Below the pieces are notes generated by a model that saw only the letters and a program-made list of their open reading frames with translations, had not been told where the DNA came from and made no database searches. From Conoideocrella luteorostrata (Eukaryota > Ascomycota > Sordariomycetes > Hypocreales > Clavicipitaceae), in contig JASWJB010000097.1 in NCBI GenBank assembly GCA_032433595.1, positions 62,001 through 126,000 of the forward strand: a DNA stretch of 64,000 bases, given 5' to 3'. Shown here one piece after another: positions 7,812 to 56,227 of the stretch; positions within the stretch are counted from its first letter, which is position 1, and each line of letters begins with the position of its first letter. A program made the position numbers and the translations under genes.

Positions 7812-8473
7812 GAGAATGCTTATGGATCCGCACCACCGGAATTTTACGTCATTGGTCCTATTATTTGCCTGATTGTTAAAGCTTACATCGACAGACTAGT
7901 CGTCTATACCTGTAGAAAAGAATTCTCTTGTACGCATGTACAGTCCTTCTCCCGTGAATTCGCCAGAATGTAACCAGCATTCATTCCAGAAACATTATGA
8001 CATCTTCATTTAACGAAACTTTAAGGCGATTGATCAGACAAATGGGGGGTAGTGTAAACGCAGCCCCTGTGCCCTCTTCAACACACTTGAATATCTTAAA
8101 AAAAAAATTAGGCTAGTGATTTTAGTAAGGTTGCTGTCGCTGCCCGCCGTAGGTGGTGTCCGGCAGGATGACCGCGCCTTGGCCGCGCCGCACTGCCAGA
8201 TGTAACCCCGTTCTATAAAAATGGGAAACACTTCATCCCAAGAATGGACACAATTATGTGATCAACCGGAGCTTTTTAATGCAAGGCAGACCTTTAGGTC
8301 TAGGCCGTTTGTCAATCCATGAGTCGAACGTTCATAGCTTTCTAGATTACCTGAACCTATTGCGGATAAGCCTTAGAGGAGTGAATTTCAATTTCGTATT
8401 AGCCTCTAAACATTTAAGACGTATTGATACTTCCTAAAACTATATGGCTACTCTAAAGATTCTCTTCTACCGC

Positions 8474-10157
8474 CTAAACTAACCATGTTCCCGGAGGCTG
8501 AGCACGACTTCTTAACAGACGACGATGTTGCTTCGGAGGTGGTGGTGAAGAATGAACAGATGAATAATCATCATCATGCTTCGGAGGTGGTGGTGAAGAA
8601 TAACTTGAGGATGAATAATAATCATCAGGCTTGGGGGGTGGTGGTGAAGAATGCCTTGAGGATGAATAATAATCATCATGCTTCGGAGGTGGTGGTGAAG
8701 AATGACTTGAGGATGATGAATAATCATCATGCCTGGGAGGTGGTGGTGAAGAATGACTTGAGGATGATGAATAATCATCATATTTCGGAGGCGGGGGTGA
8801 TTTTAGACGAGTTCGCGTCGATTTGCCATCGGAATTCTTATCTCGAGGTGGGTCTTCAAATCGAACACGACTTTTTCCTGATGGTTGTTTTCTTGATGGC
8901 TCCCGATCACGACCTGTTGATGGCTTCTTACCACGGCCTGTTGATGGCTCCCGATCGCGACCTGTTGATGGCTCTCGATCACGACCTGTTGATGGCTTCT
9001 GACCACGGCCTGTTGATGGCTCCCGATCACGACCTGTTGATGGCTTCTTACCACGGCCTGTTGATGGCTCCTGATCACGACCTGTTGATGGCTCTCGATC
9101 ACGGCTTGTTGATGGCTTCTGCCCACGGCTTGTTGATGGCTCCCGATCACGACCTGTTGATGGCTCTCGATCACGACCTGTTGATGGCTTCTGACCACGG
9201 CCTGTTGATGGCTCCCGATCACGACCTGTTGATGGCTTCTTACCACGGCCTGTTGATGGCTCCCGATCACGACCTGTTGACGGCTCTCGATCACGGCTTG
9301 TTGATGGCTTCTGCCCACGGCTTGTTGATGGCTCCTGATCACGACCTGTTGATGGCTCTCGATCACGACTTGTTGATGGCTTCTGCCCACGGCTTGTTGA
9401 TGGCTCCCGATTACGGCCTCTTGATGGCTCTCGATCACGGCCTCTTGATGGTTCGTTTCTCGACGGTTGGCCACTATCTTGGGGTGGAACGTAGTAAGGA
9501 TTTTTCCTTATGACACCGTAGTTATCCATAATTTCAGGTGGTTCATGAATCCGAACAATGAATCTTGGTGGTTGTACTCCTTCAGGTACTCTACAATATT
9601 GACGAGGTCGTCGTCCACGGCACCTATTATACAGCTTTTGATTATTATGTCCCCTTGAACTAAGCGTATTGTTCTCTGTACGGTAAATTAGTCAGGCTGA
9701 GCTTAAATTTAGCGATGTACATATCATGCTTACTGTGGCTCTGCTCGTTTGACTGGCGAGTTTCATTTAAGTGGTGAGTAGGAATTGATATAAAAGTTTC
9801 GTTGCGTCGGCTGGTCTTGTGAGTGATCTGGTCTTTAATAGTATGGGGCTGGTGTAACATCTTTTGAATTTCGGAAATGACTTTAGCCTAAGTATTCAAG
9901 TTAGCAAGTTACAGCCTCTCTCAGTGCTAGGGCACACCTACAGTTAACTGCTTATAGTCAATTTGTTTTCCTGTTCTTAAAAAATAACTGGTAGTGTGGC
10001 CATTAGCGTCATGTTCATTGCTACTTTCCGCTGTGTGAACGCAATTGCTCGCTGCACACTGAAGACTTTTATTTTGCGACTTGAGCTCCAGAAAGTTATG
10101 TGCTAAGTATGCCTCGCTAACAGCAAAGGCTGTGACGATAAGAGTTAGAAGATACAT
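8474..10157 (-). CDS. Secreted low-complexity repeat protein (unknown family)
   Basis: Exons inferred: 10157-9942, 9887-9734, 9675-8474, giving 523 residues with consistent phases and good donor/branch sites (CTAAC, CTGACTAAT). The protein starts with a signal-peptide-like segment (MYLLTLIVTAFAVSEA). A polar region and a short Arg-rich block (CRGRRPRQYCR) follow. Next come about 24 copies of an 8-residue unit alternating REPSTGRD and QKPSTGRG/KKPSTGRD. At the C-terminus are five longer units of the type HSSPPPPKHDDYYSSSS. I do not recognise the family. The unusual composition, strong positive charge and secretion signal fit an extracellular or cell-wall protein or an effector; this is inference. 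The repeats also hold the plus strand open across 8485-9513, which I treat as a shadow. Confidence 0.7.
8512..8790 (-). repeat. 51-60 bp coding repeat (Pro/Ser/Asp-rich)
   Basis: Five imperfect units encode SSPPPPK-x-DDYYSSSS-type segments at the C-terminus of the same secreted protein. Unit length varies by whole codons. Confidence 0.85.
8880..9460 (-). repeat. 24-bp coding minisatellite
   Basis: About 24 tandem units of 24 bp, each encoding eight residues ending in EPSTGRDR- or KPSTGRGQ-like sequence. Alternating unit types form higher-order blocks, so unequal exchange within the array is likely. Confidence 0.9.
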
Positions 10158-11774: not shown

Positions 11775-12840
11775 AATGCATTAAGCGCGAGTGCTTTTCT
11801 GCTATAGATTTGTTTGTCTTTGTTTTACGCTGAATTAATTATCGCGGCCATTGTATTCTAGAGCAGCTCCGCGACCATCATTGTTTTAGACCAAATTTTG
11901 CTCCCATTGACGGCCCACCTCCATTGGCTTCAATATTGAGATTATAGAGAACGACCTTCTTCAGCTTTGTTGCTTTGGTTGAGCCGTGAACAAGCCCAAA
12001 AAATCTGCAGATCCTTCATCTCAGCAAGCTGCGTTAACTGGACCAACTAAAGAGTAGGAGAAGCCGAGAAAACCGATAAGATAAAACAAAAATGTAATCC
12101 AACCTGCGAGGATCTTGCCCTGCTACCTTTCACCAAGTCAGGACCCGGGGAAGTCTCCTTTGCTGACGAATGCTATAATGTCGACGATAATTTGATGCTT
12201 ATTCAACATGGTATTGACAATGACCGGCACAATAGACGCGAGATACGGCTTACGGCTGACTTTCATGAGCACGACGACAAGCCCACCGGCCTGGAAGACG
12301 GCGCTGCAAAACGCATTTTCTTCCAAACTATATTTAGCAAACATCTAAGTATGGCAATCATTCGGTCATCACAAAAGGCTAGAAGCTCTGACTGCAGTAG
12401 ACGGCACTACTGTAACTTGGCATCCATGTATATTCCACTTCTGATCTGATGGCGAACACTTCCTCAAGAACGACATTATTAAGAACCAATGCATACAAGT
12501 GCAAAGGCATCGCAATATCATGATGGGTGCCGAAATTGAGGATCTTGACTCTCCCGAATCCTCAGACTATGGTTGCACCATCGAGGACGAAATATGTCGC
12601 AAGGTGATGATGGACAGTGATTTTGATTGGCGTTCATAAATCTAAGTCGGCCTGCAAAGACATATTAGCCAAGATAGAGCTGCGTTAATTGCAGAGCTTC
12701 GCGTAAGGTGCATCCTCTGTTCTAGTTGGTAGATGTTGCTCTAACCGACTTCTCGTAGGTGGGACCTAGGGTTATGTGTGCCGGACGACTTGCTTGGGCC
12801 GGTTGGCGAAATCACGAACAATCAGAATAATAGTCGGTTT

Positions 12841-13080
12841 TGTTGGATTACACGTGTGTGTGTGTGGGTGGATATGTGGATACACGGGCTGTGAGAGAAA
12901 GGTTACGTGGCCTCTGGGCCTAAGGCAGGAATTCAGGACGGAAGTGTCTCAGATTATAGGGGTATTTATAGGGGGATTTGGACGGGACCGTCAGACGAGG
13001 GATTCTGCATCCATCATCTCAGTAACACAGCTCTTCCCATGAATGCAAACATCGTTGAACCTCTCCTATCAATTCCAACA
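12841..13080 (+). mobile_element. Solo LTR, family A, full length
   Basis: 240 bp beginning TGTTGGATTACACGTG and ending AATTCCAACA. It is flanked on both sides by the 5-bp direct repeat GGTTT (12836-12840 and 13081-13085), which marks it as a retrotransposon insertion reduced to one LTR. It contains a TATTTATAGGGG promoter-like word. Confidence 0.9.
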
Positions 13081-13288
13081 GGTTTCTTAGTTTAGTAACG
13101 GACTGTTTTTGCCAGTGCTTGGCAGACGAGAGTAGCAAGTCAAGCTTTACCAAGTTTAGAAACCCGGGGATTTTGCGATGGAGGGCACCAAGGGCTCACG
13201 ACTTCGCCTCCGTTTTTGCGGCCATCCGAGCAAATGCCAATAGCTAGTAGAACCTTGAACTAGATTTTGTAAGTCGGCGCTACGCTAC

Positions 13289-13487: not shown

Positions 13488-13676
13488 GATAGTGCTGATA
13501 ATCAAAGATGCAATACTCCTCCTCCGACAGACCTGTCAGAATGCTTCAATTTATACCTCTTCTTCCTGCCTGTGAGGCCTCCCGACCCCCCTCGATTCCG
13601 GTGTCTTCCACCGTAAGCCCTAGTGACAACCACCGCGACATCCGACAGAAATAAAATGCATCATCACGGCCACTAA

Positions 13677-16600
13677 TTAGCTCGTAGGCTCAAAAATCTC
13701 TTCTATCCACCTGTCCTTTAAGATGTCCCTAATAGAATCTACTCCAATGATTGCCTCTAAATTTCTTGCAAAGTCGTCCACGGCCGTTCTCGAGGCGCAG
13801 GCAAATATGCAGGCACCTTGTTCGAGAATTGCCTTCCGAATGAATTTGCTGCAATTCTTCTTGAATAGAGTATCCTGAACTCTCTCTTTCAAAACGTTGC
13901 TTGGTGTTAGAGCGAGAAATCCAAGTCTACCCGCACATGCCGCTTCTTGCACACAGTCTTTGATGACTTCCGAGTCTTCGGCTTTAAATCCAGCAAACAT
14001 AGCGAATTGCTGGCTGATAAGAGAAGATTCCCCCACGATACGTATTTCTCTTGATTTTGTAACCGATTTATGCTGTAGAAGGCCCCGCAATGGCGCAATG
14101 CCTGAACCTATCGTGAATGCAATAAGAGGTGACGTAGTTCCCAAAAGACATTCCCCAGGTCCGGCACGTAATCTTACGTATAGTTCTTGTCCACTCTCTG
14201 CGCTAGAGAGAAATTTATCTGTGAATAATCCTCCTGTATGAGTTTCCACGAGTAATTCAAGATGAGATGGATAACCATTTAGGACTTGATAGTGCTGAGA
14301 GGAGGCAATCGAAAATGTCCTTGGACTCCTGGTTGGTAGATCCAGAGCTAAGCTCAATAGTGAGGGTTTCCCGGGTTTGAGATATTCAGTGAGTCGCAGC
14401 TTATTCACTACCTCTTTAACTGAATAATCCTTCATCTCGCTGAGCTTTTCTGCGGATACATCGGGACATATTAACTTGGTCCAACTTAAGCTCTTGAACG
14501 GCTTCTCTGTATCCACAAGAGAGAAGAGTTGCCTAAAGGTCCATTTTTGGTTGTTTAGTTCACAGGTTTCTTTGCCTGTTAACCCAAATGCATCCAATAG
14601 CTCGTCAATCTCATGCCCCCATAGTGGAACTATAACATCGGCATGCCACATTGGAGTGTAATTTAGTTTCCCGACGTTAAGAACAACGCGCTGCATATAA
14701 TCTGACCCAAAGCTTTCTGTTGAGACTAGCTCTGCAACTGCGAACTGGCTAGTAAGACTTATAATCTCATGGTCTTTGGTGGCCAAGTCTTTGGTAGTCA
14801 AGTCTCTGGTAGTCAACGCATTGCTCTGAAAACTTTGCTCTGATGTATCGGCAGTGCTAATATTCCCGTCCAGTATTTCCATGAGCTGTTTTACCCAAGC
14901 GTCAAACTGCCTCCAGGGGGGATTCTCCTTTGATGTGTCACCTTTCAAAAGAGGCAGCACTGGTTTGCATTCGGCCCTCACCATCGCGTCCTGCAACTTG
15001 ATAGCGGCACCGTTGAAGTCTGAACCATACGATGCATTTCCGTTGCCAAAAATAGCGAATGAAATGTCCTTCAGCTGCCCCGGGTCTCTTGTTTCACAAT
15101 TGCGCAGCATTGATAACCCATTGGGTGGTATATCCCCCCGACCGGTAGAGCTCGCGATTACGAGAATAATAGTACCCGGCTCAAACGCGTCCCAGTCAAG
15201 ACTACTGAGAGCCTTAAAATCTAGTCTTGTCGGTTTTTCTCCATTAATGTGCGGCCGAAGCTTTGGCGTGAGCGTTTCCGCTAAGCGTTTTGCTAAACGC
15301 TGTGCTGTTGATCCCGAGCTGCAGTAGAATATTCGAAGCGACCTCGATTGGCTAGAATGTACGCCATTGGTCATCGCTACTGTCGCCGATTGGTATTTCT
15401 TCTTAACGGCGACGCCGTTTGAGCCGTGTTTACGCTTCCATATAGTGACCGGGTTTGCCTTGAGCCGACATATCATGGGTTTGGGCTGGTAATTCGGCGC
15501 TCCTCCCCGATGCCAAACAGGGATAATGCTACCTTGTGGAGGGCTTAACCAGTACGGATCTGCTGGTAATCGGAATCCGTACGTAGCTAAATGATTGTCA
15601 TCAAAATCCGTGTACATAGAACTCGCGGAGAGCGAATCGCTCATCCGTACGCCTGCCTGTTGGAATGACCAGTGAACCGCATAATTAAGCTCTGCCTGTG
15701 AGCGTGATAAGACCAAGAGCCTCTCTTCCTGAGGCAAGTCATCAAAGCTTTGTCCTGGCTCTAGTAGCTGTAAGGCAGACGAAACAGCCGGCAAAGAATC
15801 ATATCGGAATGAATCAGCCAGATTGCGAACCCCAATCTCCGCATCCATAAACCATCCTATAAATGGTGTAGCAGTATACTGCACGCCGCCAATATCAAAA
15901 CCAAGCCGTGATAAAGCCGGTGCAGGGACCCAGCGTAGTCCCAGCTTATCGAATCCCAACGGGTAGTTAGGATGTCTTATGGAAACCAGAGGGAAAGAGT
16001 TAGGCGGTATTTGCGTGATGTACGGCTCGTCGCCATCAGCCATGGTGACCAAGGGCAGAAGATCCCACCTTGTACGGATAGCGGGAGGTTGCCACCCAAG
16101 AGAGATAATCGATTCCGTTATAGAGACATTTCCAGGGTCACCCAAAACAGATCCATCTGGTTGAGTGTAGCCAGCGAAAGCCAGAAGTTGAGTGTTCCAA
16201 ATCATAGGGCCTGGTTTATTTGGCTCCCTTGCGGGGAAAACAAATACTAAGAGAGTATTAGAATCCTTATGCATTTCTTTATACATCAGTTGACATCTAC
16301 TTACCACTTGGATGGATATCACCACCGTTGAATGCCTCGGTTAATTTGTCAAGGAGAACGCGCCCCATTTCCGCGCTGGATTTAACGTGGCGCAAATCGT
16401 ATAATCTATGAATAGAAAATAAAACTAATCGTTAGTATAACGCAGGATGGTTGACGGATGATTAAGGGCGTGTCTTACCTCAACGAAGAATACTCGCTGC
16501 GCATGATACACTTTCTTGCGTGCTTCCAGGAGAGCCTCATTCCGTGTTCAAGCTCCTCAATAGTTTGTGTCCAATTGCCCCCGACAACTCTAGGAAGCTT

Positions 16601-16903
16601 TGAGTCTTCAACAGAAATTTTTACAGATGTCTGGTGTATTTCTTCAAGTGCTTGATCCACCCTCTGTCTCATTGCTTCATTATCTTTAATGAGACCATCC
16701 CTGCTCAGCTGGGAGATGAAGTCAATGGCCTCGAATATAACTTCGCGGAGATCACGGTCCTCTCCAACTCGTTGTTCATCGGTGTGTATCATTCTACCAC
16801 TTTGGCAAAATGTCTTATTGCAGCCGGTAGAGGAGAGGTTTGCATAGTGCTGCTGAATTCTCTCGAATTCCTTGCAGGGAGGCAGTCTTCCGTTGGGAAC
16901 CAT
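13677..16903 (-). CDS. Nitric oxide synthase (oxygenase + reductase fusion)
   Basis: Exons inferred: 16903-16479, 16405-16305, 16246-13677, giving 1,031 residues. Alignment of the HPS/VFVFP junction fixes the second intron. Domains: an NOS oxygenase (about 1-430) with the heme-thiolate motif RKCIMRS (Cys about 132), WNTQLLAFAGY, IRHPNYPLGFDKLGLRW, and WFMDAEIGVRN carrying the arginine-binding Trp/Glu (Glu about 312). A basic linker (about 439-461, WKRKHG...VKKKYQ) sits where calmodulin binds in animal enzymes. Then follow a flavodoxin/FMN domain (about 478-635, FYCSSGSTAQRLAKRL, SSTGRGDIP), an FAD domain (RTFSIASSQ about 818) and an NADPH domain (TIGSGIAPLRG about 888). It should convert L-arginine to citrulline and NO using NADPH. 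The key residues are present and no stop is seen, so it is probably active. NOS-like proteins are patchily distributed in fungi. It shares a neighbourhood with an NO dioxygenase and argininosuccinate synthase. Confidence 0.93.
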
Positions 16904-19900
16904 TGGAAATTCTTGTACCTTGATGATGGTGAGATGTGTATCAATTCAATAACGTGGAAGAGTGTGGCGCGATTGACAACACTAAAGTGTCTGAAGAATG
17001 AATGCTTCTTGATGAGAAGAAATTTTTGAGATTCCGGATATAGTGCCGCTGATTTGCACGACCAAGGTGAAGAATGCTAACGTATAGTGGATTATCGTCT
17101 TCTAGATCAGTGCTTATTTGAAGGCCACTTTTATAGTCGGAAGGGAAATGGTCAAGAATTATGAAAAATTATGCAGCTTTCTAATGCATGCGTAAATACC
17201 GGTTACGACTAAACCACAAGTGAAAGCCGTGTTTCGAACTTTCAAGCTCAATCCGAAAATTCACAACACTTCGCTGGTGTAACACATGTAAGAATATCAT
17301 GGCCTCATTCCATTACAAGGCTGCCAAGCGCTTCCATATTGGGCCACCAGCGTCAACAATACACGTCTCAGTGTCAATGCAACGGGTGAGAGAGCACTGC
17401 CACCCGGCCCCGGTTGCTGTACAACGTTACGACACTACTGCAAAGATAATTTAACCTTGTTATAGTCGCGTCCTCTGCTGCACCTTTTTCATTATACTTT
17501 AGCCTATACATATCTGGCCCCCAGCATACTGTTAGCCCCCGCGCTAATCCTCGGATTGGACCAGCATCCAAGCTGTCAAGTTCCCCGGCTCGGGACGCGT
17601 CAGGAAAAACCCGTCTACCGATAGAGAATTCTGCAGGGATCGCACCTCGCGGCAACGCATCATCGGACTATAGGCCTAAATTTTACTCCACTCAGCAGCA
17701 AGAAATTATGCATAAGACAAGGTCTAATTCTTTGTTAGGAAGCTAGACTACAAGGTCATGTTCCACGACATCACGACATCCACTTCCGTACCTGCTCACA
17801 TTGCGACAGGACTGCTTAAAAGGTCTCACAGTGGTTGGGCAGAGGTTTCAATCACGTAATGAGAACTGAGAGTGCGGACACCAGGGTATTGTCGACGCTT
17901 GGCGGCTAGTCCCGTTGGAACTCCATCCAGATCTTGGCGGCGCAGACCACTTTAATAAGTTGTCAAGGATTATCCATGTTGCTGACGTAGAACATGAAAC
18001 CGATAATGAAGATGATGGAAACTTCCCAGCTAGTGTGGAAGGCAAGACATGGTCCGATTCGCCGTCAAATTAGCTGGAATACAAGTAAAAGCTCCACTGA
18101 TCGAACCTTCGTGACATAGAGAAGATCTCGATCTCGATCTCGATTAGTCTTACGAAATCCCAGACCATGTTTGCTCCGCCTCACAAGCGCAGCAACCCGA
18201 GATCCCTTAACCCTGTTCCGTTGATCTTCGTGGCGACACCTTCCACCCCATGCCCTTGCGAAGGCGTCACCGGAGAAGCGACGCTGCGGCGCCAAGCATT
18301 ACGTCTCTGAGAAGACGACCCGAAGGATGCAGCAGCGACAGCAACGAAAAAAAAAAAGGAAATCTCGATGACAGTGCTGTCCTGAATTTTGCACGGTTCG
18401 TGAGTCATCTTAACACGTAATATGCATCAGGTAGTGACGTTGAGCGCGCTCCGCCGCATCCAGCTAGCTGCTTCCTTCCCACCCAATCCTGTGCTACATT
18501 AGCGCACGGCCAGTAGACAGTTGGAAGAAAGAAGAATGGTTCCACCAAAAATGTTCCGGAAGAAGGTCATCTATGAAGCCGATGATGCTTCTCAGGATGC
18601 AGCAGATATACTGTATTAGATGTTACGAAGAACCGAGTATGTATTTACCAAAAAACTGATAAATTGTAGACCGCTAAAAAGTAACTCATCTAAATAAATT
18701 CTGTAATACTATTTACTGCTTACTCGCAGGGCTTGTTATTTGCTGCTATTATGTTTATTGTGGGGGCGAAGACAAAGCTTATGCTATATTATGCCTCTCG
18801 TAAGGTAAAAATGAATATGCATATTTGTTTCCAAAGTTCTACTGTTGCAAACTACTCCTCTTCTACATGCCTCATAATTACTCCGGTAACGGCGCCCGCG
18901 ACCGGCCTTGAGACGTTGAGCGAGCTCCACCTTACGGATGTCGAGCTTTCGTATTTCCACCAACCGTATCTCGATTTGTATCATCATAAACATCGTACAA
19001 GTTCCATCGATGACGGCCGCGAAATTATCATGCGGTGTGAAGGCTTATGTGCGCATAAGTGATTCAAATCCTTGTTCCAGTAGCTCAAACTGATTCTCAA
19101 CCAACAAATATGTGATATTAAGACGCTTAATGCATGTGGCCTGTTAAAAGGCACACTATTCAACGACCTTGACTGAGCCAAATCGGCGCGAGGAGGCAGA
19201 ACAGGCAGTATTAAGCCAAAGTAAAGCATCTCCAAGGATTGGTATCATAGGTTGCAATGTCTCTGAGAGCTTAGTTTGCCGCTTATCGAGACAATAGTAG
19301 CGACAATGATGAGCAACAATCTACTAAGCACGACGAGACCCAAGTCCACCGAAGGGTAACGTTATATAAATTCTTTAGGTTTAGCGGCAATCTCAAGTAT
19401 GCAGTTGGAGGGATAAGGTCTCAGCGGTTGCCTGGGGCAAGCTATACATTTTTTAATAATGGGATCATATTAGGTTAAGCATGGATTTAACTTCTTTTCA
19501 GTAATATAACGCGTGCTAACGATTGGTCTGGTGCTAGACACAGCTAAACTACTTGAAAATAGTGCTACTCTCGGGTTCGGCGTTATACTCACGAGTGAGC
19601 ATCTCTCCAGAAGACTGAGTCAATTACGAGGAAGCTAGCTCAGACACTGCTGTGCGACCATAAGTAGATAGTATTGCTAGTGGATCCTTGCTTCCTGACT
19701 TTTTGCAAAATAGTTCCCAGGTGCTTATTCTTGAATAAAATGGGTACATAAAAATGATCACTCACAATCAGACAGGTTCCATGGGCATAACCTTGGGCCG
19801 CCAGGTTTGAGTACAGCCTCAATATGAAATCCGGCTAGTTCCACATTTACAGCCATTACATGAAAGCACTTTCATCTCATCAAACAAGTGGGCCGCCAAG

Positions 19901-22900
19901 TCAATATTATGCACCGTGATATAGAGGATGGCTTGTTTTGGAACGTGATGGTCTTGGCTGGCAAAGAACGACATAGGGAGGCGAAAACCAAGATGGCGAC
20001 GAATGGGTTGAAATTATGACGCTTGACAATCGGTATACTAGTGGGCACGGCAATGAGCATGTATCCCATCGGATTAGCTACAGCACATTACACAGCCCGA
20101 TATGCTTGTGGACATTTTAGTCCGCCGGTGTCCACTTTTGCAGGGAGCACGGAGTCACATGAATTGCGCCTTCCGACGCCACTATCTTGGCTAAACAGGG
20201 TTTTAAACTCTTGGCAATATGAAATTTGAAAGGCGATAGACTAGCCATGAAGTTTTGAAAGACATCTGCAATGCAGTTGATCTGCAATATGACATTGAAT
20301 AATTGTGCTTGGCCGTCATGTTCGCAGCGTTGTCGTGGTTAGTGTTACGTGTAACATGCAATATATGACAGGTCATTTTTTCATCCAAAAATTAACACGT
20401 TTCTCTCTCCGATGATTTAGGCTTTTGGGCTGCCATTTGGATTAAGCTTATATGGTTATTTTATTATAGTGTCTTCGTAGTCAAAATCACGAGAGCATAC
20501 AGCACTATATCGTGGCAGTTATACTTTTACCTCTGCGCTCATTCTTACCAGGAAAGCCCCGGTATGCTTGAAAACATCTTTGGTCCGACCAATGCCTGAT
20601 TAACCTTCTATTTGGTGCTTGTTCGCTCCTTTCATTTCTCGTAGATACTTGCCCTACATTATCTAAACTACGAACTCAATCTCAAACTGTAACTTTTCTA
20701 CCAATGTCATCGATGCAAGCTGCTCACCTGCATGCAGTAGGGATTCTCTAGCCAAACTCGGGCAACTGATAAGTGTTCACAATACGTAACAAAAATTCGA
20801 AATGAGTGCAGAACTGCGGGGGTAAGACGATATTTTTTGCCGTTTGCAAGGACTTCCGCATAGTCAATCACACCGTTGTGTTGACCAATTACAATGTCCC
20901 GATCACGTACGCTTACGTACCACACTAGGCTTAATTAGAATTTGCTTGCACTGCGAAAAGGGCAGTTATGGTCAGTGCTCAACATAGTGAGATATCGCCT
21001 TGTATTGCTCTCCGTGGATTTTGCCCGCGCATGCATAATGGAAGCATCATTTCCTAGTCCTTCCGCTCGTTCAAAGCGTGTCACAACTTTTGTCGCTGTG
21101 CCTTGTGTCTTAAGCCAAGAAATTGCGTAACACGACCTTGTGTCTTCTGACTTGTCAGAAATGGGATATAGCGCTTGCTTCATATACGTAGTGATGCATA
21201 TGCACGCATATTACAGTATTAGTCATAAACAGCAAATACCTGTTCAACTCGGCCGCCGACCGAGTGCGCAGTGCCTTGGCATGACGCATCCGGAGATATT
21301 TCGGGACCGTGCAATGTTACCTGTTACGTAATTTGCTCTCTGATGCGAGGAGGCGAATTCTGCAGCAACTTTTTTTCTCATATGTTCAAGAGGTGAGCTC
21401 TTAGCCTTGACTTTTTGCCAAGACAAGAATCCTGTTTATGGCCTGTTTAAGTTGATGTCCGTTGATCTCGTGCTCAGATCTGAGCCTGCTTACTGTAGTA
21501 GGTAGAAAGGCGGGGCGCATCGCCAAGAATTCCTTGCGTCGCGGATATGGGGTCGACTCCCAAGCAAGCGGGGGATAGTTTAACGGAACCATCGAGGCGG
21601 CATTAACTCCGCAAGAGATAATGCTTTAGCGACTAAAAAAAAAAAAAAAAAAAACCTAACTATTATATAGCTCAGATAGCTATTTAGGTAATAGATTTTA
21701 TTAATACCAAGCTTTAATTGCATCTGGGGTGGGCGTTCGAATTAAAAGGGTCAATTGGACAATGTGGACGAAATGGCTCAGTTAAACTGTCCCCCGCATG
21801 CCAAGGTCCAATCCGCTGATGAAGGTTGATTTTCGGCGCGCAATAAACAGTGGAGACGCTAAAAGCGGCGCCACAGCCCGGCTTGTGCCTATTGATCCTG
21901 GCGACTTGAATCGACGCACAGATTGGATCCACGATCCCCAACGAGAAGTCGCGGAATTTTATGAGCCATTCCAGCTTAGCTCGCCCCGTCCCGCCTAATT
22001 CAAACTCCTCGGTCCGAAACCCCTTCCCGCATTGCGTGCTAGTGCTTGTGCACAAGGCGCAGGCTCGGTCATGCTATTAGTACCATTTCTGGCTTTTTCA
22101 TTGTCACGTCATCTTATGGTCGCCGTTGCGGTGGTAGATCAACACACCGCCAAGAGTCGCCCTCCTTTACAAGCCCACCAAATCCTCTTCCGTGTTACAA
22201 TTCGGCGCATGGTTGTTAACCCTGGATTCCGGAGGAGCAGCTTGAATGTATCTGCGGGGGGGGCCTTGAGCCAATTAAAACGTAACATTGAGGGGTACTT
22301 GGTCTGCCACCTAATTTACACCATGATAGATGTCCCGGCAATCTGGTGTTTTACAAATTGGCACATCGCACTTGCTGCAGCACCAAGGGTCTTCCGGCTG
22401 GGCCCTTGGCGATTGAGAGCATCTTTGCCCACGGGCGCAAGACCAATTCGAGCTCTTGTATCAGCACAGCGAATACCCCGGCAAGCTAGGTACTATGACT
22501 GTTTCTCTCGATTGATATAGTTATGCTGTGAAAGCTTAGTAAATTCGACGCCTGCTCGAAACAGCTTTCTGGAGCTTGCCGACTTGCTGAAGGTTGCGCA
22601 TACCGCATCAATTAATGCCTGCGAGGTGCAAGTTGCAGAGGTCGAAAATAATGCCCTGCGCCTAATAGAGGGCTTCCTTTCTAGACTACAGGTGCTATCA
22701 ACTGTCTGCTCACGTGAGCTATCTGCCTCATCAACAAGCCAGCCTCTCCGTCACATGTGATGTTTTGAGCCTCTTCGCCGGGCTCGTCAACCCGCTCTAG
22801 AGGGTTATCATAGTGTTCTGGTAGGTTGAAATTCATTGGTAACATCGCGAAACGCGTTGTAGGGCGTTTTGGTGTGCTAGATTTTGGCCGGTTACCTTGG

Positions 22901-23259
22901 TCCCTCGGAAAAGAAAGGGGGTAAAAGTGGACGAAGTGGGGCTTCGATACAGTCGAGCTACTCCACTGGAATCTAGCAGATAACGGATGAATAATGGATT
23001 GATTCTGGCTTCTCCGGATCTCCATCGCTTGCTTTGGTTTCTATTCGTAGCTAGGAACATGCTCTGAATAAAAAAAATTTATAGCGTGAAATCAGGAATC
23101 ACAACACACGGCAAGTTGTATAAATAGCGCTCGCCAGGAACTATACTTCAACGTAAGATCTGTTACATAGCACGCTCTGTACATTCAGACGGATTTAACC
23201 TCCATTTACATCACCCTCTTCACTAAACCCTTTTTCATTCGTCATCTCATCAGCACAGA
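16904..23259. other. Long stretch without convincing gene between NOS and flavohemoglobin
   Basis: Open frames here are short and lack domain resemblance or splice patterns. Exceptions worth noting are the possible broken frame at 20707-21183, an A20 tract at 21635-21654 followed by AT-rich sequence, and about 18820-18880, which resembles the terminal repeat of the element at 52771-54283. Promoters of the NOS and flavohemoglobin genes should lie at the two ends. Confidence 0.5.
20707..21183 (-). pseudogene. Possible broken gene, unknown
   Basis: From ATG at 21183 one frame runs to 20707 with a single in-frame TAA at 20935-20937, about 158 codons in all. The downstream half contains phrases such as VWYVSVRDRDIVIGQHNG and KKYRLTPAVLHSF, which look like normal protein. 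An intron spanning the stop is conceivable but no strong donor is present. I do not recognise a family. Confidence 0.3.
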
Positions 23260-24540
23260 ATGGCCCTTACAGCACAGCAAACAGCCACGGTCAAGGCGAC
23301 GGCGCCGGTGGTAAAACAATACGGCAGCACTATTACGGCTGCATTCTACCGTAACCTGCTTGCCGCGCATCCAGAGCTAAAAAATTACTTTTCTCTCCGA
23401 AACCAGCAAAGTGGCGCTCAGCAAGCCGCTCTTGCTAACGCCGTGTTTGCCTACGCCTCTTATATCGATGACCTGCCCAAGCTACATCATGCCGTCGAGC
23501 GGATCGCGCATAAGCATGCTTCTCTATTCATCAAGGCTGACCAGTACCCCATTGTTGGTAAATACCTGATCAGCGCGATTGCTGAGGTCTTAGGAGATGG
23601 AGATGCCTTAGGAGATGCCTTAACGCCAGAAATCACAGATGCGTGGGTCGCCGCCTACAACCAGCTCGCAGATATTTTTATCCAGAGGGAGCAGCAGCTA
23701 TACAACGAGACAGCAGATTGGCAGACGTGGCGTAAGTTTATTATTACCAACAAGGAAGCGGAAACAGAAACAATCGTTAGTCTATACTTGGAGCCTGTGG
23801 ATGGTAAGCCACTGCCAGCGTTTAAGCCAGGCCAGTACGTGTCAGTGCAGCTTCCTATCCCAGAGCTTAACGGTCTGCTGCAGAGCCGGCAGTATAGTCT
23901 AAGTATTGCGCCGGAAAACAACATAAAGCAGTACCGCGTATCTATCAAGAAGGAAAGCGTTGATGAAAACAACACTATAGATGACCTCTCGGCAGGCAGG
24001 GTTGCAGGCATAATTTCTAACAGACTTCACGAAATATGCCAAGTTGGTGGCGAGGTGGCACTAAGTCCTCCACGTGGTGAATTCTTCTTTGAGCCTGCTA
24101 CGGCAGCTCCTGATACCCCAATTATTCTTCTATCTATTGGCGTTGGAGCTACGCCAATGGTGTCTATCCTAGACTCTATTCTAAAGTCATCTAACCCATC
24201 GAGGCCTGTGACATGGGCTCAAGCTGCTCGCCACTCAGGCAGTTTATGCTTCCGTAAGCATATTGCCAAGAGAAGTCAGGACAACAGCAGCATCAAGAGG
24301 GCTGTGTTTGTGAAGAACGTGGGCAAGGGAGACAAGAAGGGCATCGACTATGACTACGAAGGCTTACTAAGTTTGGAAAAGCTTGCGGAGGTAGGAGCCT
24401 TGCATTTGTGTGATAAAACGGCCAAGTATTTTATCTGCGGGCCGGAAGATTGGATGGTCGAAATCAGGGATCAATTGGTTCGTAAGGGGGTGCCGCTAGA
24501 GCGTGTGCATCTCGAGTTGTTTAGAACTGGAGACTTGTGA
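23260..24540 (+). CDS. Flavohemoglobin (nitric oxide dioxygenase)
   Basis: A single exon of 426 residues, normal for the family. N-terminal globin domain (about 1-145) with the Tyr of helix B (FYRNLL, Tyr30) and the proximal heme His in RIAHKHASL (His86). Next comes a ferredoxin-reductase-type FAD domain (GQYVSVQLP about 191, RQYSLS about 210), then the NAD(P)H domain (GVGATPM about 294, ICGPEDWM near the C-terminus). The enzyme oxidises NO to nitrate with O2 and NAD(P)H and protects against nitrosative stress. ATG at 23260 has an A at -3 and the globin starts immediately after it. Placed 6.4 kb from the NOS start and 644 bp ahead of the co-oriented argininosuccinate synthase, it is well suited to protect the cell from locally made NO. 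An LTR fragment starts 2 bp after the stop codon. Confidence 0.95.
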   Translation: MALTAQQTATVKATAPVVKQYGSTITAAFYRNLLAAHPELKNYFSLRNQQSGAQQAALANAVFAYASYIDDLPKLHHAVERIAHKHASLFIKADQYPIVGKYLISAIAEVLGDGDALGDALTPEITDAWVAAYNQLADIFIQREQQLYNETADWQTWRKFIITNKEAETETIVSLYLEPVDGKPLPAFKPGQYVSVQLPIPELNGLLQSRQYSLSIAPENNIKQYRVSIKKESVDENNTIDDLSAGRVAGIISNRLHEICQVGGEVALSPPRGEFFFEPATAAPDTPIILLSIGVGATPMVSILDSILKSSNPSRPVTWAQAARHSGSLCFRKHIAKRSQDNSSIKRAVFVKNVGKGDKKGIDYDYEGLLSLEKLAEVGALHLCDKTAKYFICGPEDWMVEIRDQLVRKGVPLERVHLELFRTGDL

Positions 24541-24542
24541 TG

Positions 24543-24615
24543 TGTTGGAATAGATAGGAGAGGTTCAAATTGATCTGCATTGATGGGAAGAGCTGTGTTA
24601 CAGTGATGATCGAGG
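24543..24615 (-). mobile_element. LTR family A fragment, reverse
   Basis: TGTTGGAATAGATAGGAGAGG and the following CATTGATGGGAAGAGCTGTGTTACAG-like text match the end of family A in reverse. The match fades after about 70 bp. It begins two bases after the flavohemoglobin stop, so it probably contributes the 3' untranslated region. Confidence 0.7.
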
Positions 24616-25184
24616 AAAAGCTGACGCGTAGCCAAATGAAGCCTAGCAAACCCCATCCAGCTGCCTTGAAATCCGGATCCAGCTAGAGTGTGCTGGGGCC
24701 GAGGGGGCTTGCCTGCAGTGGTACACTTGTTAGTAGAAGAATCAAAGAGAAGTACCCATCTCACCCGTGTTAGTAGTGATGTCCTGAGTCTGCTTTTTTT
24801 ACACAGCATTCTTTAGAGCTCTCTTTTATCTTTTGACGGATTTTTCGAAATATAGACCATCCCCCCTTCCCTTCCGTCGAACCACACCCCGCTTCCAAGA
24901 CACCTTGTTTACAATGCATCACTAATGGCCGCATGATAGGTACTTCTATGTTGTGAACGATCAAGCATATCTACAAGAACGAATTGGCTTAGCAAGTCGG
25001 CTCGCTACTGGTGTAGTATCACCTTAGACTTACTACGAGCATTCTTTCTTCAACTCTCACGGCTAGAAATCCTAGACACCTCTTCGCTGCCGTTGTGCCA
25101 GAGACACTTCCATCATCTTCCTCTTTATCCACCACACTGTACGTCTTGCATTTCTTTTAATTCAGGACCTCAACGAGCTGCACC

Positions 25185-27219
25185 ATGGCACCAGAACGTA
25201 TTTGCCTGTAAGTCAATTCACCACTTGTGTGATCTAGCCCCCGATAATTAACATCATGCAGCGCCTACTCCGGCGGTGAGTTGAGAACTCAAGAGACAGC
25301 GCCGCAGGCATGCTCATAGACGTCACAGGACTTGACACAAGTACTATACTTCGTTATCTCGTTCTCCAAGGCTACGAGGTTATTTGTTTCCTTGCGGACT
25401 GCGGTCAGGAAGAAGACTTTGAGGCTGTTAAGTCTAAAGCACTAAAGCTCGGCGCGGAGCGGATGATCATCCAGGATGTCCAACAGGAGCTGATCGATGA
25501 GTTGGTGTGGCCTGCGATTCAATGTGCGTCTCCCTCTAATTTACTACTAGAACAAGTGCAGCCACTCTGCTGACACTGAAACTATAGGTAACGCCATCTA
25601 TGAGGATCGATGTAAGATGGTCACCTTAGACGCACCTAGACGAAACCACTAACGCCTGAAGACCTGCTCGGAACAAGTCTCGCCCGCCCAGTCATCGCTA
25701 GGGCAATGGTCAAGGTGGCCAAGGAGAATAACTGCACGGTCCTAAGTCATGGATGTAGGTGGCCTCTTGGTCAAGTTCTGGTCTTGCTGTCGTGTCGTTA
25801 TGCCGCTAACACAGGTGTCTATGGTCAAGGTACTGGCAAGGGTGTAAGTTGTCGAATCCCATCTTTTGATGTTCTGCATGCTAATTAATGCAGAATGAGT
25901 ATGTCTGGATATACTTCTAGATGACTTAACTCCGTACTTACTTCATCTCCCAGTCAAGTCCGTTTCGAGCTGGCATGGAAAGCCTGCGACCCGACCCTGA
26001 AGGTTCTGGCCCCATGGCGCATGCCCGAGTTCTATGACCGATTCGCGTAAGTTATTCCTCTACTCTTGCTATTGTATACTTGAGCTGATAATTTCACAGA
26101 GGGCGTGCGGATCTCCTTAAATTCGCCGAGGAGCAGAATATCCCCGTCAGCTCTACTCCTAAGGCCCCCTGGTCCTTGGACAACAACATTATCCACTGCA
26201 GCTACGAGGCTGGTGTAGGTTGCCTTATATGCACGTATTGCTCTTTGTCTCGCATTAACGCTTAAACTGTTAGATTCTCGAGCAAACGGAGCAGGAGCCT
26301 CCGAAGGACATGTGGAAGCGCACAGTTGGTGAGGCGCCTTACTCCATGCAATTCGCCTAGATCATATGCTGACGTCTCTGTAAAAATCCGACGACAGCAC
26401 CCGACAAGCCCACACCCTTTACCGTCCACTTTGCTGAGGGCGTTCCTGTAAAACTTGAGGTAGAGGGCAAGGTCGTCACCGGCTCCCTGGAGATCTTTAA
26501 GGAGGCAAACGAGATCGGCCGGGCTAATGGTGAGGCTGCAACCCGAATGACTCTGGATTGGGCTCATACTAACATGATACTAGGCATTGGACGGGTGGAC
26601 ATCGTTGAGTCGAGGTTTATCGGTGAGCCTGCGCACCCACTGCTGTAAGCTATGTCACTTGCTAACAACCTCCAGGCCTAAAGAGCAGGGGCTGCTACGG
26701 TCTGCTATTAGATATGGACAATTAACCGCATACTTTCTAACCCGTGTCTACAGATACCCCCGGCCTCACCATTCTCCGTCAGGCCCACCTGGACCTAGAA
26801 GGCCTCGTCATGGACTCCAAGGTCCGCGCCATTCGCGACCGTCTCTCGCACGACTGGTCCACTGCCATCTACAATGGTGAGTTGTCTATCTGCGCTATCT
26901 GCCAAATCTGAACACCCTGACCTATAAATTAGGCATGTACTTCACGCCAGAGCGTGAGTTCGTTGAGCATGCTATCAAGTTCTCGCAGCACCAGGTCGAT
27001 GGCAAGGTCAACCTTTTCGCGTATAAGGGCTGCGTTTATGTTGTCGGCCGCTCCAGCGAGGCCTCTAATCTCTACTCCGAGGACGAGAGTAGCATGGATA
27101 CGCTCGATATGGCTTGGACGCCGCAGGACACGACTGGTTTCATCGCGATTCAGGGCATTAGGATCCAGAAGTATGGCGAGCGCAAGATCAAGGATGGCGA
27201 GCCCCTCACCCGTGCCTAG
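25185..27219 (+). CDS. Argininosuccinate synthase
   Basis: Exons inferred: 25185-25207, 25262-25275, 25329-25523, 25588-25611, 25662-25754, 25830-25843, 25894-25898, 25954-26046, 26100-26214, 26274-26328, 26398-26529, 26584-26622, 26676-26699, 26754-26876, 26933-27219. Together they give 411 residues, the usual length. Diagnostic text: AYSGGLDTS (ATP pyrophosphatase P-loop, split by introns), [75 protein letters not shown]. The enzyme joins citrulline and aspartate with ATP to give argininosuccinate. Next to an NOS, its obvious job would be to recycle the citrulline by-product towards arginine. The fungus needs a housekeeping copy too, so this may be a paralogue; that cannot be judged here. 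No argininosuccinate lyase is in the window. Odd: the GKG-ND-QV junction requires a 5-nt exon. Confidence 0.92.
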
Positions 27220-29218: not shown

Positions 29219-31155
29219 TTAAGTCTTCTGGCTATACTCTCTTGATAGTTTAGTATAGCGCGACGCGGTTGCAGCCCTTACCCTCTTGCCCACAATTGCC
29301 AGAGGAATAGCCATGGATTGAACGAACAAACTCAATATAGCAGCAAGAATAAACATCCACTTAATAGTCATACTTTCGCGCCAAGGTGTGAGAGCAAAAT
29401 TGCCAATTGAGCCAATGCTATTTCGAAAAAGGGCAATAACTACAAAAGCCTGCGCCACAATCTGTTTTTCATGTTGTTAGCCTTTTATCCTTTCAAATAA
29501 CAGAATCATAATATCTCACATTGGGATAGGAGTCGATAACAAGTGTGAATAATATGCTCGCAGTAGCACTGACGCCGAAAGCGCTGAGTCCGCTGCCAAT
29601 TGTTGGATAGATCCAATGCATTTTCTGGGAATTTAAAATTACATTAGTATCTATTATAGCATGTGTGGCGTTTTCAACTTACCAGATCAGCTGTAATGCC
29701 AAAAGTGACCAAGCCAGCCGCGATTGCAATTGCTGGCAGGGGCAAAAAGTATAGTCGCATTTCCGGCTCGAATAGGCCCTTGTTTCGTCTTGCCAGCCAC
29801 ATTACCATTCTGTCATTCAAGTATCCGCCGTAAAGGCAACCAAATACGGATCCAACAAGTGGACCCACGTGCAACAGACCAAGCTCACGAGGATTGAAAT
29901 TATATGGTGGCTCTGTGAAGATAATTGACTTCATAGATCCTGTAATCCCAATCAGGCCAAGACCTATTCCAACAACCAGGGCGGTGAAAAGAACTTGCGG
30001 TATAGCCAAGCTGAATAATGGTTGATAGAATAGTTTCCAGAGCGACTCGTTAGTTGGTGTGACAAGTTGAAGCCGAAAGTAAGATGGGAATGATACGTGT
30101 GGTACTGTAAGCTCTTGAAACGAGTGTTTTGTGATTGATGCACTATCTTTGCACTCTAACTCAAGACTGTCAGAGTCGCCAGAGCTGCGCACAAACTTTG
30201 TCTCCTCAAATGCTATAAAAAAGACAAAGGTTAAAACCGTCATTACAGCAGCAAGAGTTTGGTAAGATGATCGCCATCCATATATCGTTGCCTGAGCACC
30301 AGCCGCCAAAGGAGTTAAGAAATGCCCAAATTTCAAGGTTATGAAATAAATGCTATTAGCAGTTCCCCTTTGATGAATGAAGAACATGTCGCAGATCTGC
30401 GCAGTTCCAGGCTATCAGCTTGTATATCCATAGGCTTACAGTATTATTTATAGAGGTAAGATACATACGCTCATTTGAATTGCTGTTTCGTTGACAGCGC
30501 CAGCAACTCCTTTTAGCACATTTGCAATAAATAGCTCTGGTACTGTTTTTAAATAAGCTGTCCACCAAACTGCTGCTGTAAAAACAATGGTTGAAACAAG
30601 GTACACTGAGCGTCTGCCGTATTTTGTAGCAAAAGGTATCATCAAACAGCAGGATACTGCCTCAGCGCCATGTAGCATCGCTTTGGCCTGTATAAGCTGT
30701 TCGGTTTTCAGATGAATTTCCTTCCGCATGGGGGCCCAAAACAGATGCTGGATTGATAATCTGGATAGACTATCATTAGTACATAATCCCTGTGTTAAGC
30801 AAGAGAATTCTTTTCGCACCCTGTAAAGATAGACAAAGTCATTGCAGCGAGGAGTCCAAAGTTTAGACACTTGCGCCACATCTGCCACCCCTACAGTTAA
30901 GGAATTAGTATAGAAAATTTGAGATCAGAAGTTCAAAGCGTATTGTGACTTGCCAATGGGTCATTTGGATTATCGGAGGGTCTGGGCATTCCAACCACAA
31001 TTTTTTTTGTATCATTTTGACAACCTGTACGAAGTTAGGCTAAATTATTCTGCAGAGTGAATTGGTATTTTGCTACCTGAGAACAGATCTACCGTGCCTG
31101 GTGGATGCTGCTGTTGCTCGGTATTCGAAGATGGAGTATGCTGAAATTTACCCAT
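29219..31155 (-). CDS. Major facilitator superfamily transporter
   Basis: Exons inferred: 31155-31077, 31024-30954, 30890-30820, 30769-30469, 30396-29683, 29624-29520, 29461-29219, giving 527 residues with agreeing phases. Family text: NDPL...WRKCLNFGLLAAMTLSIFTG at the first membrane helix, KYGRRSVYLVST in the first cytoplasmic loop, GAVNETAIQM, FFIHQRGTANSIY, PLAAGAQATIYGWR, a long acidic central loop, TEPPYNFNPRELGLLHVGP, GGYLNDRMV, and EPEMRLYFLPLPAI. It resembles the fungal drug:H+ antiporter-like transporters that carry the DPLNWP signature. The second intron (30891-30953) uses a GC donor (GCAAGT). Substrate cannot be told from sequence. It points away from the argininosuccinate synthase and could move arginine, citrulline or an exported product, but that is only suggested by position. 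Confidence 0.82.
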
Positions 31156-32689: not shown

Positions 32690-34068
32690 CGCCATTTTTT
32701 GTGTGACATTAAGGATGGGCAAAGGTTGGTCAACTCTACACAATCCCTCTGGACTATCGTCGGAAATACTCTGCAAGATCCCCAGGCAGGGCATGTAATC
32801 TTTGTCCTAGACGGTCTAGACGAATGCGCCGGGCTCGAGCTTGACAACCTGGTGCGGAATGTGACGAGCCAATTCGGCAGCCGCCAGTCAGGCCAAAGCA
32901 AGTTTAAATATCTTTTAACTACCCGGCCGTACGAGCAGATCACTTCCAAGTTCCGGGATGACTCTTTTCCAAATATTCGTATACTAGCAGCTAGTCGGCC
33001 GCTGACTGTCTCGGAAATGAACGTTGCGTTGAATATAGACGACACATCATAGTCATTTTCGGGCCTCGACCTGGAGAAAGAAGAGGACTTTAAGCTGCGC
33101 CTCAGATCTTGGTGTGGGTTGTTTGTCTCAATCCATAATAGCAAGATTTATTTCCTCCATCAAACTGCTCTGCGAGTTCTTCTCGCCGATTTAGCATCAA
33201 CTGCGATTGTTCCATCTGCAGGGCTACGTTGGCAGAACTCCCATCACCACCCAGCAGGCGCACAACGTTCTCGCAGTGGCCTGCGTGCTCTATCTAAACT
33301 TCTTCAACTCCGAAGTTGGGCTCCCAACGGATGCGAACGGGGAATCTGGCCGCCCCATCAACGTCTGTTGGAATTGATAGGAGAGATTCAAATTTGTTTG
33401 CATTCATGGGATGAGCTGTGTTACTGTGATGATGGAGGAAGAATTCCTCATCTGGCGGCCCTGTCCAAATCCCCCTACAAATACTGTATAAATACGCCTA
33501 CAAGCTGAGACGCCCTAGTCCCGAATTCCTGCCTCGGGCCCAGAGGCCACGTAACCTTTCTCTCACAGCCCGTGTATCCACACATCCACTCACACACACA
33601 CGTATAATCCAACAACATCCGCGCTTTCTTAAACTACTCGGCCGAAACTTGGGGGACCCACATTCGAGAAGCCGGCACCATTGACGACACTGCAATATAT
33701 CTTCCGCTCTGAGAATTTGCGATCCGGATTCGGAGAGCTACTCGGCATGGTTTAAAATCTACTGGAATACTATAAATACGAGAATTCCTTGGCATTTCAC
33801 AAATCTTATGGTGGCGGCCCATTTTGGGCACAAGGCCGTCGCTAAGCTGCTGCTCGATAAGAACGCCGATATCGAGGCGAAGGACAATTGTGGCCGGGCG
33901 CCGCTGTGGTGGGCCTCTGAGAACAGGCACGAGGCCGTGGTCAAGCTGCTGCTTGATAAAGGTACCGACGCGGAGGCGAAGAGTAGTTCTGGCCGGAGGC
34001 CGCTATCGCGGATCGCCAGGAACGGGCACTCAACTTTGGTTAAGTTGTCTCAACGGGAATCTCGATAA
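32690..34068 (+). pseudogene. NACHT-ankyrin NLR, broken and LTR-interrupted
   Basis: In order: the end of a NACHT domain with Walker B VIFVLDGLDEC and KYLLTTRPYEQI (32780-32940), a stop near 33050, then the typical downstream block WCGLFVSIHNSKIYFLHQTA (33112-33170). Next, in a shifted frame, come TTQQAHNVLAVACVLYLNFF and GLPTDANGESGRPINV (to 33365). A solo LTR interrupts at 33366-33614. Beyond it lie FLNYSAETWGTHIREAG (about 33625) and ankyrin repeats MVAAHFGHKAVAKLLLDKNA, EAVVKLLLDKGTD and further text to the stop at 34068. The P-loop region is missing upstream. Fungal NACHT-ANK proteins are NLR-like surveillance proteins; this copy cannot make one. It lies with a second, intact-looking NLR at the left edge of the window. 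Confidence 0.8.
33366..33614 (-). mobile_element. Solo LTR, family A, reverse, inside NLR pseudogene
   Basis: 249 bp from TGTTGGAATTGATAGG to GTATAATCCAACA, the reverse of family A. Flanks are ACGTC (33361-33365) and ACATC (33615-33619), a 5-bp target duplication with one transition. Confidence 0.88.
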
Positions 34069-38130: not shown

Positions 38131-38217
38131 ATTCTTGAGTTGGATGAGGCTGGTTTCGATTATTGACAATTTGTCAGAATGTGTCCCAACTAGGGGAGAG
38201 TGATCCTTCGAAATTTC

Positions 38218-43685: not shown

Positions 43686-43696
43686 GTGCATACTTT

Positions 43697-43860
43697 TGTT
43701 GGATTACGTGTGTGTTTGTGTGTGGAGCCGACGTGGTGATCCACGGGCTGTGAGAGAAAGGTTACGTGGCCTCTGGGCCTGAGGCAGGAATCCGGGACTA
43801 GGGCGTCTCGGATTGTTGGGGTATTTATAGGGGGATTTGGACAGGGCCGTCAGACGGCAT
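43697..43860 (+). mobile_element. LTR family A, 3' truncated
   Basis: TGTTGGATTACGTGTG, CACGGGCTGTGAGAGAAAGG and TATTTATAGGGGGATTTGG match family A. The match ends near CCGTCAGACG and the LTR end is missing. Confidence 0.75.

Positions 43861-54723: not shown

Positions 54724-56227
<1,504 letters not shown>

Follow-up and report, generated by a model that had tools for sequence, protein, structure and literature searches.

The scale-insect-killing fungus Conoideocrella luteorostrata has intact genes for a nitric oxide synthase (NOS), a flavohemoglobin (FHb) and an argininosuccinate synthase (ASS) in that order, and we asked whether the three belong together as a unit or are neighbors by accident. 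We examined them within the window, a stretch of 64,000 nucleotides of contig C97. A sequence-only reading of the window had proposed a module that produces NO and recycles citrulline. Our tentative answer, which we put somewhat short of probable, is that the trio is a young, lineage-specific neighborhood made up of gene duplicates or accessory copies, in which NOS is possibly coupled to FHb and ASS could be either a member or a chance neighbor.

Gene models and the DNA between them

Gene models, domains and conserved columns bore out the three intact genes called by the sequence-only reading, which also had the outer bounds of the trio right (13677..27219), and the MFS transporter that it placed beyond ASS corresponds to MFS-like frames at 29677-30411 and 30451-30924 (Table 1).

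Table 1. Features of the NOS-FHb-ASS locus, in window positions
Feature	Positions	Strand	Description
NOS (NCBI QQS21_005676)	13677..16903	-	3 exons (16903-16479, 16405-16305, 16246-13677); 1031 aa
NOS domains			oxygenase and FMN (Pfam); FAD/NADPH (model)
NOS-FHb intergenic region	16904..23259	.	divergent; no Pfam-recognized gene in two frames tested
Dispersed repeat	21565-21803		within NOS-FHb intergenic region
FHb (NO dioxygenase)	23260..24540	+	single exon; 426 aa; Globin and NAD_binding_1
ASS	25185..27219	+	15 exons; 411 aa; accessory type
MFS transporter frames	29677..30924	-	tail to tail with ASS; 75% relative on C298, 57% on C6

The window NOS has the same length as the NCBI protein and matched the Pfam families NO_synthase (PF02898, 8.4e-86) and Flavodoxin_1 (8.3e-10). 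Its oxygenase domain, recognized by PF02898 and by alignment with neuronal NOS, includes the stretches at residues 127-135 and 309-316 that hold what we take to be the haem Cys and the substrate Glu; a C-x4-C is present at residues 28-33, and no calmodulin-binding segment was evident in the protein by eye. Among the columns that are at least 97% invariant in 27 chosen relatives, 117 of 120 are kept. A broken reductase was suspected because Pfam, at E 0.001, missed the FAD/NADPH C-terminal half. This suspicion was not supported: the whole reductase could be modeled, with mostly high confidence in the FAD/NADPH half, and the NOS model aligned over 1066-1076 columns to full-length SyNOS, its best full-length structural match. 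NOS carries a fused diflavin (FMN, FAD/NADPH) reductase, whose FAD/NADPH part is visible only in the model and the structure comparison.

FHb combines globin and ferredoxin-reductase-like domains (PF00042, PF00175) with the conserved residues, keeping 86 of 86 columns that are nearly invariant (at least 97%) across 25 relatives; against the bacterial equivalog model NF009805 it scored 414.1 bits, below the cut-off of 432. ASS exceeded both argG equivalog cut-offs (439.3 bits against 268.2 for TIGR00032, and 447.9 against 334 for NF001770) and keeps 137 of 140 such columns (at least 97%, 28 relatives). The first of the two MFS-like frames, at 46.2 bits, is above the cut-off of 33.4, and the second, at 23.8 bits, is below it. 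Both lie on the minus strand, which sets them tail to tail with ASS, and we found no support for the transporter as part of the unit.

The region between NOS and FHb resembles the upstream region of the NOS paralogue on contig C169 up to about position 18221, and the promoter of the FHb paralogue on C43 from 22980 on. A further gene between the two was sought in two frames, neither of which matched Pfam, and a promoter motif shared by the trio was considered and rejected. We searched for 11 motifs in the forms we take them to have; each of the three window genes has HGATAR (AreA), CCAAT and SYGGRG (CreA) upstream of it at chance level, with HGATAR counted 3, 5 and 5 times before NOS, FHb and ASS against 3.0, 3.0 and 2.7 expected. 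HGATAR is absent from the promoters of the paralogues (P 0.07 for the C169 NOS and 0.10 for the C43 FHb), a contrast with the window genes that is suggestive at most.

Other copies in the genome

Copies elsewhere, which one would look for in a gene cluster, were present and intact for all three genes: NOS on C169, FHb on C43 (with a further, distant FHb on C15) and ASS on C367. The intact second ASS excludes one circumstance that the sequence-only reading had named as fatal to its proposal, that the window ASS is the only genomic copy. Gene trees, suggested there as a check for extra paralogues, showed FHb as one of two sister copies and ASS as the accessory type. In the FHb tree (34 of the 120 listed matches plus the C15 copy) the window FHb evolves faster than its sister, with a branch of 0.10 versus 0.04 for C43. 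Which of the ASS or FHb copies serves housekeeping can only be inferred.

The window ASS was allied to Xylariales ASS in the tree (43 of the 120 listed matches plus the window and C367 copies; 24 of the 120 plus the same two in a second tree). For groups that were named after the tree had been seen, placing the window ASS with other accessory ASS was rejected (p 0.011), its nesting inside Xylariales was favored, short of proof (p 0.07 and 0.13), and forcing the Hypocreales ASS together was rejected (p 6e-5), other Hypocreales rows being scattered as well.

The NOS pair (dN/dS 0.19; dS 0.52, 0.45-0.62) and the FHb pair (dN/dS 0.13; dS 0.48, 0.38-0.62) are under purifying selection and have similar dS; the FAD/NADPH half of NOS is likewise constrained (dN/dS 0.19). 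Whole-genome duplication was rejected as the source of the other copies, given 3 Rpb2-type loci and the 0.8% duplicated BUSCOs that PMC12352038 gives for this genome. Segmental duplication of the whole trio was not supported either: these copies are spread over C169, C43, C15 and C367, and in the stretches fetched no flanking genes were common to them and the window copies. Because the NOS and FHb duplicates end separately and share no intergenic DNA, a joint duplication of these two is not shown. The contig of the C169 NOS had no match to FHb or ASS. An ASS on C15 was discounted as a further working gene, being an intronless retrocopy with a lost start codon and a shifted frame, and ASS fragments were seen on C105 and C254 in the 7-kb stretches looked at. 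Argininosuccinate lyase, sought as a member of the unit through the lyase family PF00206, had no match on C97. The MFS neighbor, too, has its 75% relative on C298, so spare copies do not set NOS, FHb and ASS apart.

Linkage in other species and competing explanations

Fungal NOS was called rare in the sequence-only reading, which overstates the case: there were 414 NOS homologues at E <= 1e-3, and among the best 120 every organism name shown was that of a fungus, with many classes represented. We compared linkage by contig and locus tags (not by gene order itself) from lists that give the first names of each cluster and its longest contig; because these hold only the best 120 of 414 NOS, 6565 FHb and 7999 ASS scored matches, further linkages may exist. 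Eight species are named in both the NOS and the FHb best-120 lists, and in 4 of them, one being C. luteorostrata, the two genes lie on a single contig. Their locus tags are 3 apart in Ophiocordyceps unilateralis (XA68_14170-14173), 11 in O. camponoti-saundersi (CP533_0431-0442) and 22 in O. polyrhachis-furcata (L249_7123-7145); the genes occupy separate contigs in O. sinensis, O. camponoti-leonardi, Cordyceps sp. RAO-2017 (short contigs) and Colletotrichum musicola. In the NOS tree (39 of the 120 listed matches) the copy linked to FHb split off within Ophiocordyceps. This linkage is therefore not homologous with the Conoideocrella locus and, the three species being close kin, counts as one event at most. 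FHb and ASS shared a contig in none of 12 comparable species when the best-120 lists were compared by eye (13 species were in both, and Fusarium decemcellulare was left out because its tags came from different assemblies). NOS and ASS did so in 2 of 3, on large scaffolds. The lack of any conserved neighborhood, which was to count against the proposal, is excluded in part: NOS and FHb share a contig in three Ophiocordyceps, but ASS did not turn up beside them, and the C169 NOS has neither gene on its contig.

One competing explanation is that NOS, FHb and an accessory ASS ended up close together by chance in a genome rich in dispersed duplicates and repeats, each working alone, and we rate this about as likely as our own answer, somewhat short of probable. 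The solitary NOS paralogue, the MFS neighbor with its 75% relative, the ASS retrocopy and fragments, the separation of FHb from ASS in all 12 comparable species, and the 6.4 kb with a dispersed repeat between the NOS and FHb starts all agree with it. Against it, under random gene order (12,844 genes; 2, 3 and 2 copies) one expects only 4.4e-7 trios confined to three consecutive genes and 9e-4 adjacent NOS-FHb pairs, figures that are not corrected for the number of such stories from which a reader could choose; the NOS-FHb linkage in Ophiocordyceps also argues against accident.

Two other explanations concern what NOS does. NO might serve as nitrogen donor for a specialized metabolite, with FHb protecting the producer and ASS unrelated or supplying arginine. 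PMC10831120 states, and PMC6458111 proposes, a link between a fungal NOS and the formation of 2-azahypoxanthine, a Collybia sordida NOS (P0195) is among the relatives of the window NOS, and C. luteorostrata is rich in biosynthetic clusters, 48 being predicted in PMC12352038; yet in the 20 window frames that were scanned, those of NOS, FHb and ASS among them, Pfam matched no backbone enzyme such as a polyketide synthase or peptide synthetase, and we judge this explanation improbable. It is still harder to credit that NOS no longer makes much NO, through substituted reductase motifs or a missing pterin, and is some other arginine oxidase or a weak enzyme with no NO module around it. The reductase half is divergent and escapes Pfam, and a search for a PTPS gene, which would belong to the route to the NOS cofactor, found none, though it could miss a short intron-split gene; however, 117 of the 120 near-invariant columns are retained, the complete reductase is modeled and aligns to SyNOS, its FAD/NADPH half is under purifying selection, and PMC6104048 describes tetrahydrofolate as able to bind the NOS oxygenase.

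If the young neighborhood of duplicated and accessory copies is a working one, family knowledge suggests that NOS would turn arginine into citrulline and NO, using NADPH, and that FHb next door would oxidize NO to nitrate and so cap NO in the producing cell; ASS would join citrulline with aspartate, and the lyase, encoded elsewhere, would give arginine back. We are least sure of two further steps, which we infer: that NOS and FHb have stayed side by side on account of the joint use of producer and scavenger, and that the unit includes ASS. The module as originally proposed is supported only in part: it gains from the duplicate copies, the faster-evolving FHb, the accessory ASS, the purifying selection and similar dS of the NOS and FHb pairs and the Ophiocordyceps linkage, and loses from the lone C169 NOS, the unlinked FHb and ASS elsewhere, the contig without a lyase, the chance-level motifs and the failure to find a PTPS gene. 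A bolder version appears unlikely to us: that insect-pathogenic Hypocreales repeatedly brought a duplicated NOS near an NO dioxygenase, and that Conoideocrella took in an accessory ASS as well, perhaps through horizontal transfer from Xylariales, the whole forming a module that leads from arginine to nitrate and recycles citrulline, and serving the fungus as a gene cluster whose NO production is self-limited. Any role of the trio in infection would be purely conjectural.

Relation to known systems

The window NOS is 38-54% identical to the 39 compared sequences from other species. It shares its architecture and the signatures WKHxRKCIMRSEY and GWFMDAEIGVRD with full-length fungal NOS of Colletotrichum, Apiospora, Cercospora and Ophiocordyceps; unlike these, C. 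luteorostrata has two recent copies, one of them beside FHb and ASS. Many full-length fungal entries are named nitric-oxide synthase (NADPH). In animals, NOS, ASS and ASL form a citrulline-NO cycle, which is not known as a gene cluster there. The arginine and citrulline reactions would be the same in Conoideocrella, whereas FHb is added and the contig showed no lyase gene. Fungal metabolic gene clusters, as we understand them, similarly place accessory enzyme copies for linked reactions side by side; their co-expression, shared regulator and conserved order are features not seen so far for NOS-FHb-ASS. Another parallel is SyNOS of Synechococcus PCC 7335, a fusion of globin and NOS through which nitrogen passes from arginine into nitrate (PMC6104048). 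It couples NO production to a globin expected to oxidize NO to nitrate, in one fused cyanobacterial protein, unlike the separate neighboring genes, plus ASS, of this fungus. We found no description of a fungal NOS-FHb-ASS cluster in titles and abstracts of the open-licence literature, and six NO-related terms are all absent from the text of PMC7341126.

Two intact full-length NOS under selection, one beside a natural scavenger, provide a concrete way to test whether NO in an ascomycete comes from a true NOS, and the recurrence of NOS-FHb linkage in Ophiocordyceps yields a simple comparative prediction.

Layout of the locus

The assembly of Conoideocrella luteorostrata (Clavicipitaceae) analysed here comprises 46.4 Mb in 620 contigs, and the window covers bases 62001-126000 of its contig C97; the published assembly has 47.39 Mb and 12,844 genes, and elongate hemlock scale is a known source of the fungus (excerpts of PMC12352038). 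The sequence-only reading had described nitric oxide synthase (NOS), flavohemoglobin (FHb) and argininosuccinate synthase (ASS) as intact, and all three are. NOS is transcribed away from FHb and ASS, with 6.4 kb between the start codons of NOS and FHb and 0.6 kb from the FHb stop codon to the ASS start. The repeat between NOS and FHb has 39 further copies (84-91%) among 40 scored of 249 candidates.

Features of the window
Feature	Position	Strand	Remark
NOS	13677-16903	-	1031 aa
FHb	23260-24540	+	426 aa
ASS	25185-27219	+	411 aa
NOS region homologous to C169	about 13653-18221
FHb region homologous to C43	22980-24542
Dispersed repeat, ~240 bp	21565-21803		MITE-like, inverted ends
Second dispersed repeat family	12840-13081, 33365-33615, 43694-43869, 52065-52267
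Short piece of second family	24543-24613		abuts FHb 3' end directly after stop codon
794-aa open frame, Scabin-like domain	35848-38229	-	PF22596, 1.9e-38
Frames built of short repeats	8428-9691		open on both strands
TPR/DUF7779 protein frame	3-2216		near locus
DUF3723 frame	5966-6523		near locus
DUF5910 frame	47681-49393		near locus
Subtilase frame	55673-56224		near locus
DUF7924 frame	61571-62476		near locus

Other copies and gene trees

NOS has one paralogue, on contig C169 (834 identical residues, 1018 aligned codons), where no FHb or ASS match was found. FHb has a close paralogue on C43 (86-88%) and a distant one on C15 (35%); NCBI proteins QQS21_005676, QQS21_003319 and QQS21_007867 correspond to the window's contig C97, C43 and C169. 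One other intact ASS gene lies on C367 (71%). ASS remnants comprise fragments on C105 and C254 and a disrupted, frame-shifted, intronless retrocopy of the C367 type on C15 (L019:4199-5438), a filamentous-fungal example of a processed pseudogene.

Genome duplication was ruled out by the count of Rpb2-type loci in this genome (3) and the published BUSCO result (excerpts of PMC12352038). The NOS pair (dS 0.52, 0.45-0.62; dN/dS 0.19) and the window-C43 FHb pair (dS 0.48, 0.38-0.62; dN/dS 0.13) are of similar age, which fits a joint duplication. Separate duplications of similar age are equally possible, because the homologous stretches end separately and the dS comparison covers these two pairs. 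For the ASS pair dS is saturated.

Both C. luteorostrata NOS copies are sisters within a clade shared with Ophiocordyceps; Metarhizium, Claviceps and Pochonia are not named among the best 120 of 414 NOS homologues. The window FHb falls inside a Clavicipitaceae clade, with a branch of 0.10 versus 0.04 for the C43 copy and a GC3 of 0.52 versus 0.67.

The window ASS belongs to an accessory type. Its identity with 16 tree rows of this type, from scattered Sordariomycetes, is 84-94%, and 8 faster-evolving rows (67-76%) nest among them; ASS of Neurospora, Metarhizium and Beauveria lies outside it (66-69%). The closest rows are an unnamed metagenome protein and Monosporascus, Xylaria curta and Nemania, which belong to the Xylariales. 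With groups named after the tree was seen, grouping the window ASS with the remaining accessory ASS was rejected (p 0.011), and its nesting inside the Xylariales rows was not significant (p 0.07; 0.13 without the unnamed row). That it was gained horizontally is our guess; it could possibly be an unsampled old paralogue. Fungal ASS, a gene of primary metabolism, occurs as several patchy paralogue types, out of step with Sordariomycetes species relationships.

Linkage in other species

Linkage elsewhere was read from contig sizes and locus tags (assumed to be in gene order) in the best 120 homologues of each protein. Of the 8 species named in both lists, 4 have NOS and FHb on one contig: C. luteorostrata itself, O. 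unilateralis (XA68_14170, XA68_14173; 73,305 bases), O. camponoti-saundersi (CP533_0431, CP533_0442; 130,320 bases) and O. polyrhachis-furcata (L249_7145, L249_7123; 4,080,701 bases). They lie on different contigs in O. sinensis, O. camponoti-leonardi, Cordyceps sp. RAO-2017 and Colletotrichum musicola. The three linked Ophiocordyceps NOS form one clade, which diverged inside the genus from another clade of Ophiocordyceps NOS; because the linked clade arose there, its linkage is most simply independent of that in C. luteorostrata.

NOS shares a scaffold with accessory ASS in Coniochaeta ligniaria (4,165,987 bases) and with ASS of the other type in Pseudomassariella vexata (4,509,802 bases), weak evidence of linkage because the scaffolds are so large; in Apiospora arundinis they share none. 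Comparing the best-120 lists by eye gave 12 comparable species, and in 0 of them were FHb and ASS on one contig; ASS in these species was mostly of the other type (3 accessory).

Under random gene order, 4.4e-7 three-gene spans would be expected, a figure to which we estimate that thousands of alternatives may apply, because the trio was found by seeking any sensible story. The adjacent NOS-FHb pair (9e-4 expected) and the Ophiocordyceps case (0.0014-0.025, depending on distance, copy number and assumed gene number) are modest evidence for NOS-FHb coupling.

The enzyme and the proposed module

The window NOS looks like a complete enzyme. It keeps 117 of 120 columns nearly invariant across 27 fungal NOS, and its oxygenase half can be aligned with neuronal NOS, starting at residue 19 and taking in a C-x4-C at 28-33. 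The reductase half is divergent, a Pfam scan recognising the flavodoxin domain only. Foldseek aligned an AlphaFold model (41 sequences; mean pLDDT 82.2, pTM 0.64) with full-length syNOS, with 21% identity across 1066-1076 columns; the low global TM-score (0.30-0.31) may be put down to differing domain placement. The usual tetrahydrobiopterin route requires PTPS (PF01242), which had no match in the genome in a search that a short intron-split gene could escape. This is compatible with NOS activity, because excerpts of PMC6104048 name tetrahydrofolate as an alternative cofactor.

Upstream motifs were sought by their consensus sequences. The C367 ASS has a TGASTCA (CpcA/Gcn4-like) site upstream; the window ASS has none within 1 kb upstream. 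Each of the three window genes is preceded by HGATAR, CCAAT and SYGGRG, in numbers expected by chance; HGATAR does not occur upstream of the C169 NOS (P 0.07) or the C43 FHb (P 0.10).

The sequence-only reading had proposed a module in which NOS would make NO and citrulline, FHb would remove NO and ASS would recycle citrulline. The genes and their adjacency are real, and each has other intact copies elsewhere; a shared function as one module is putative. Within that proposal, ASS would be the weaker half and NOS-FHb coupling the stronger.
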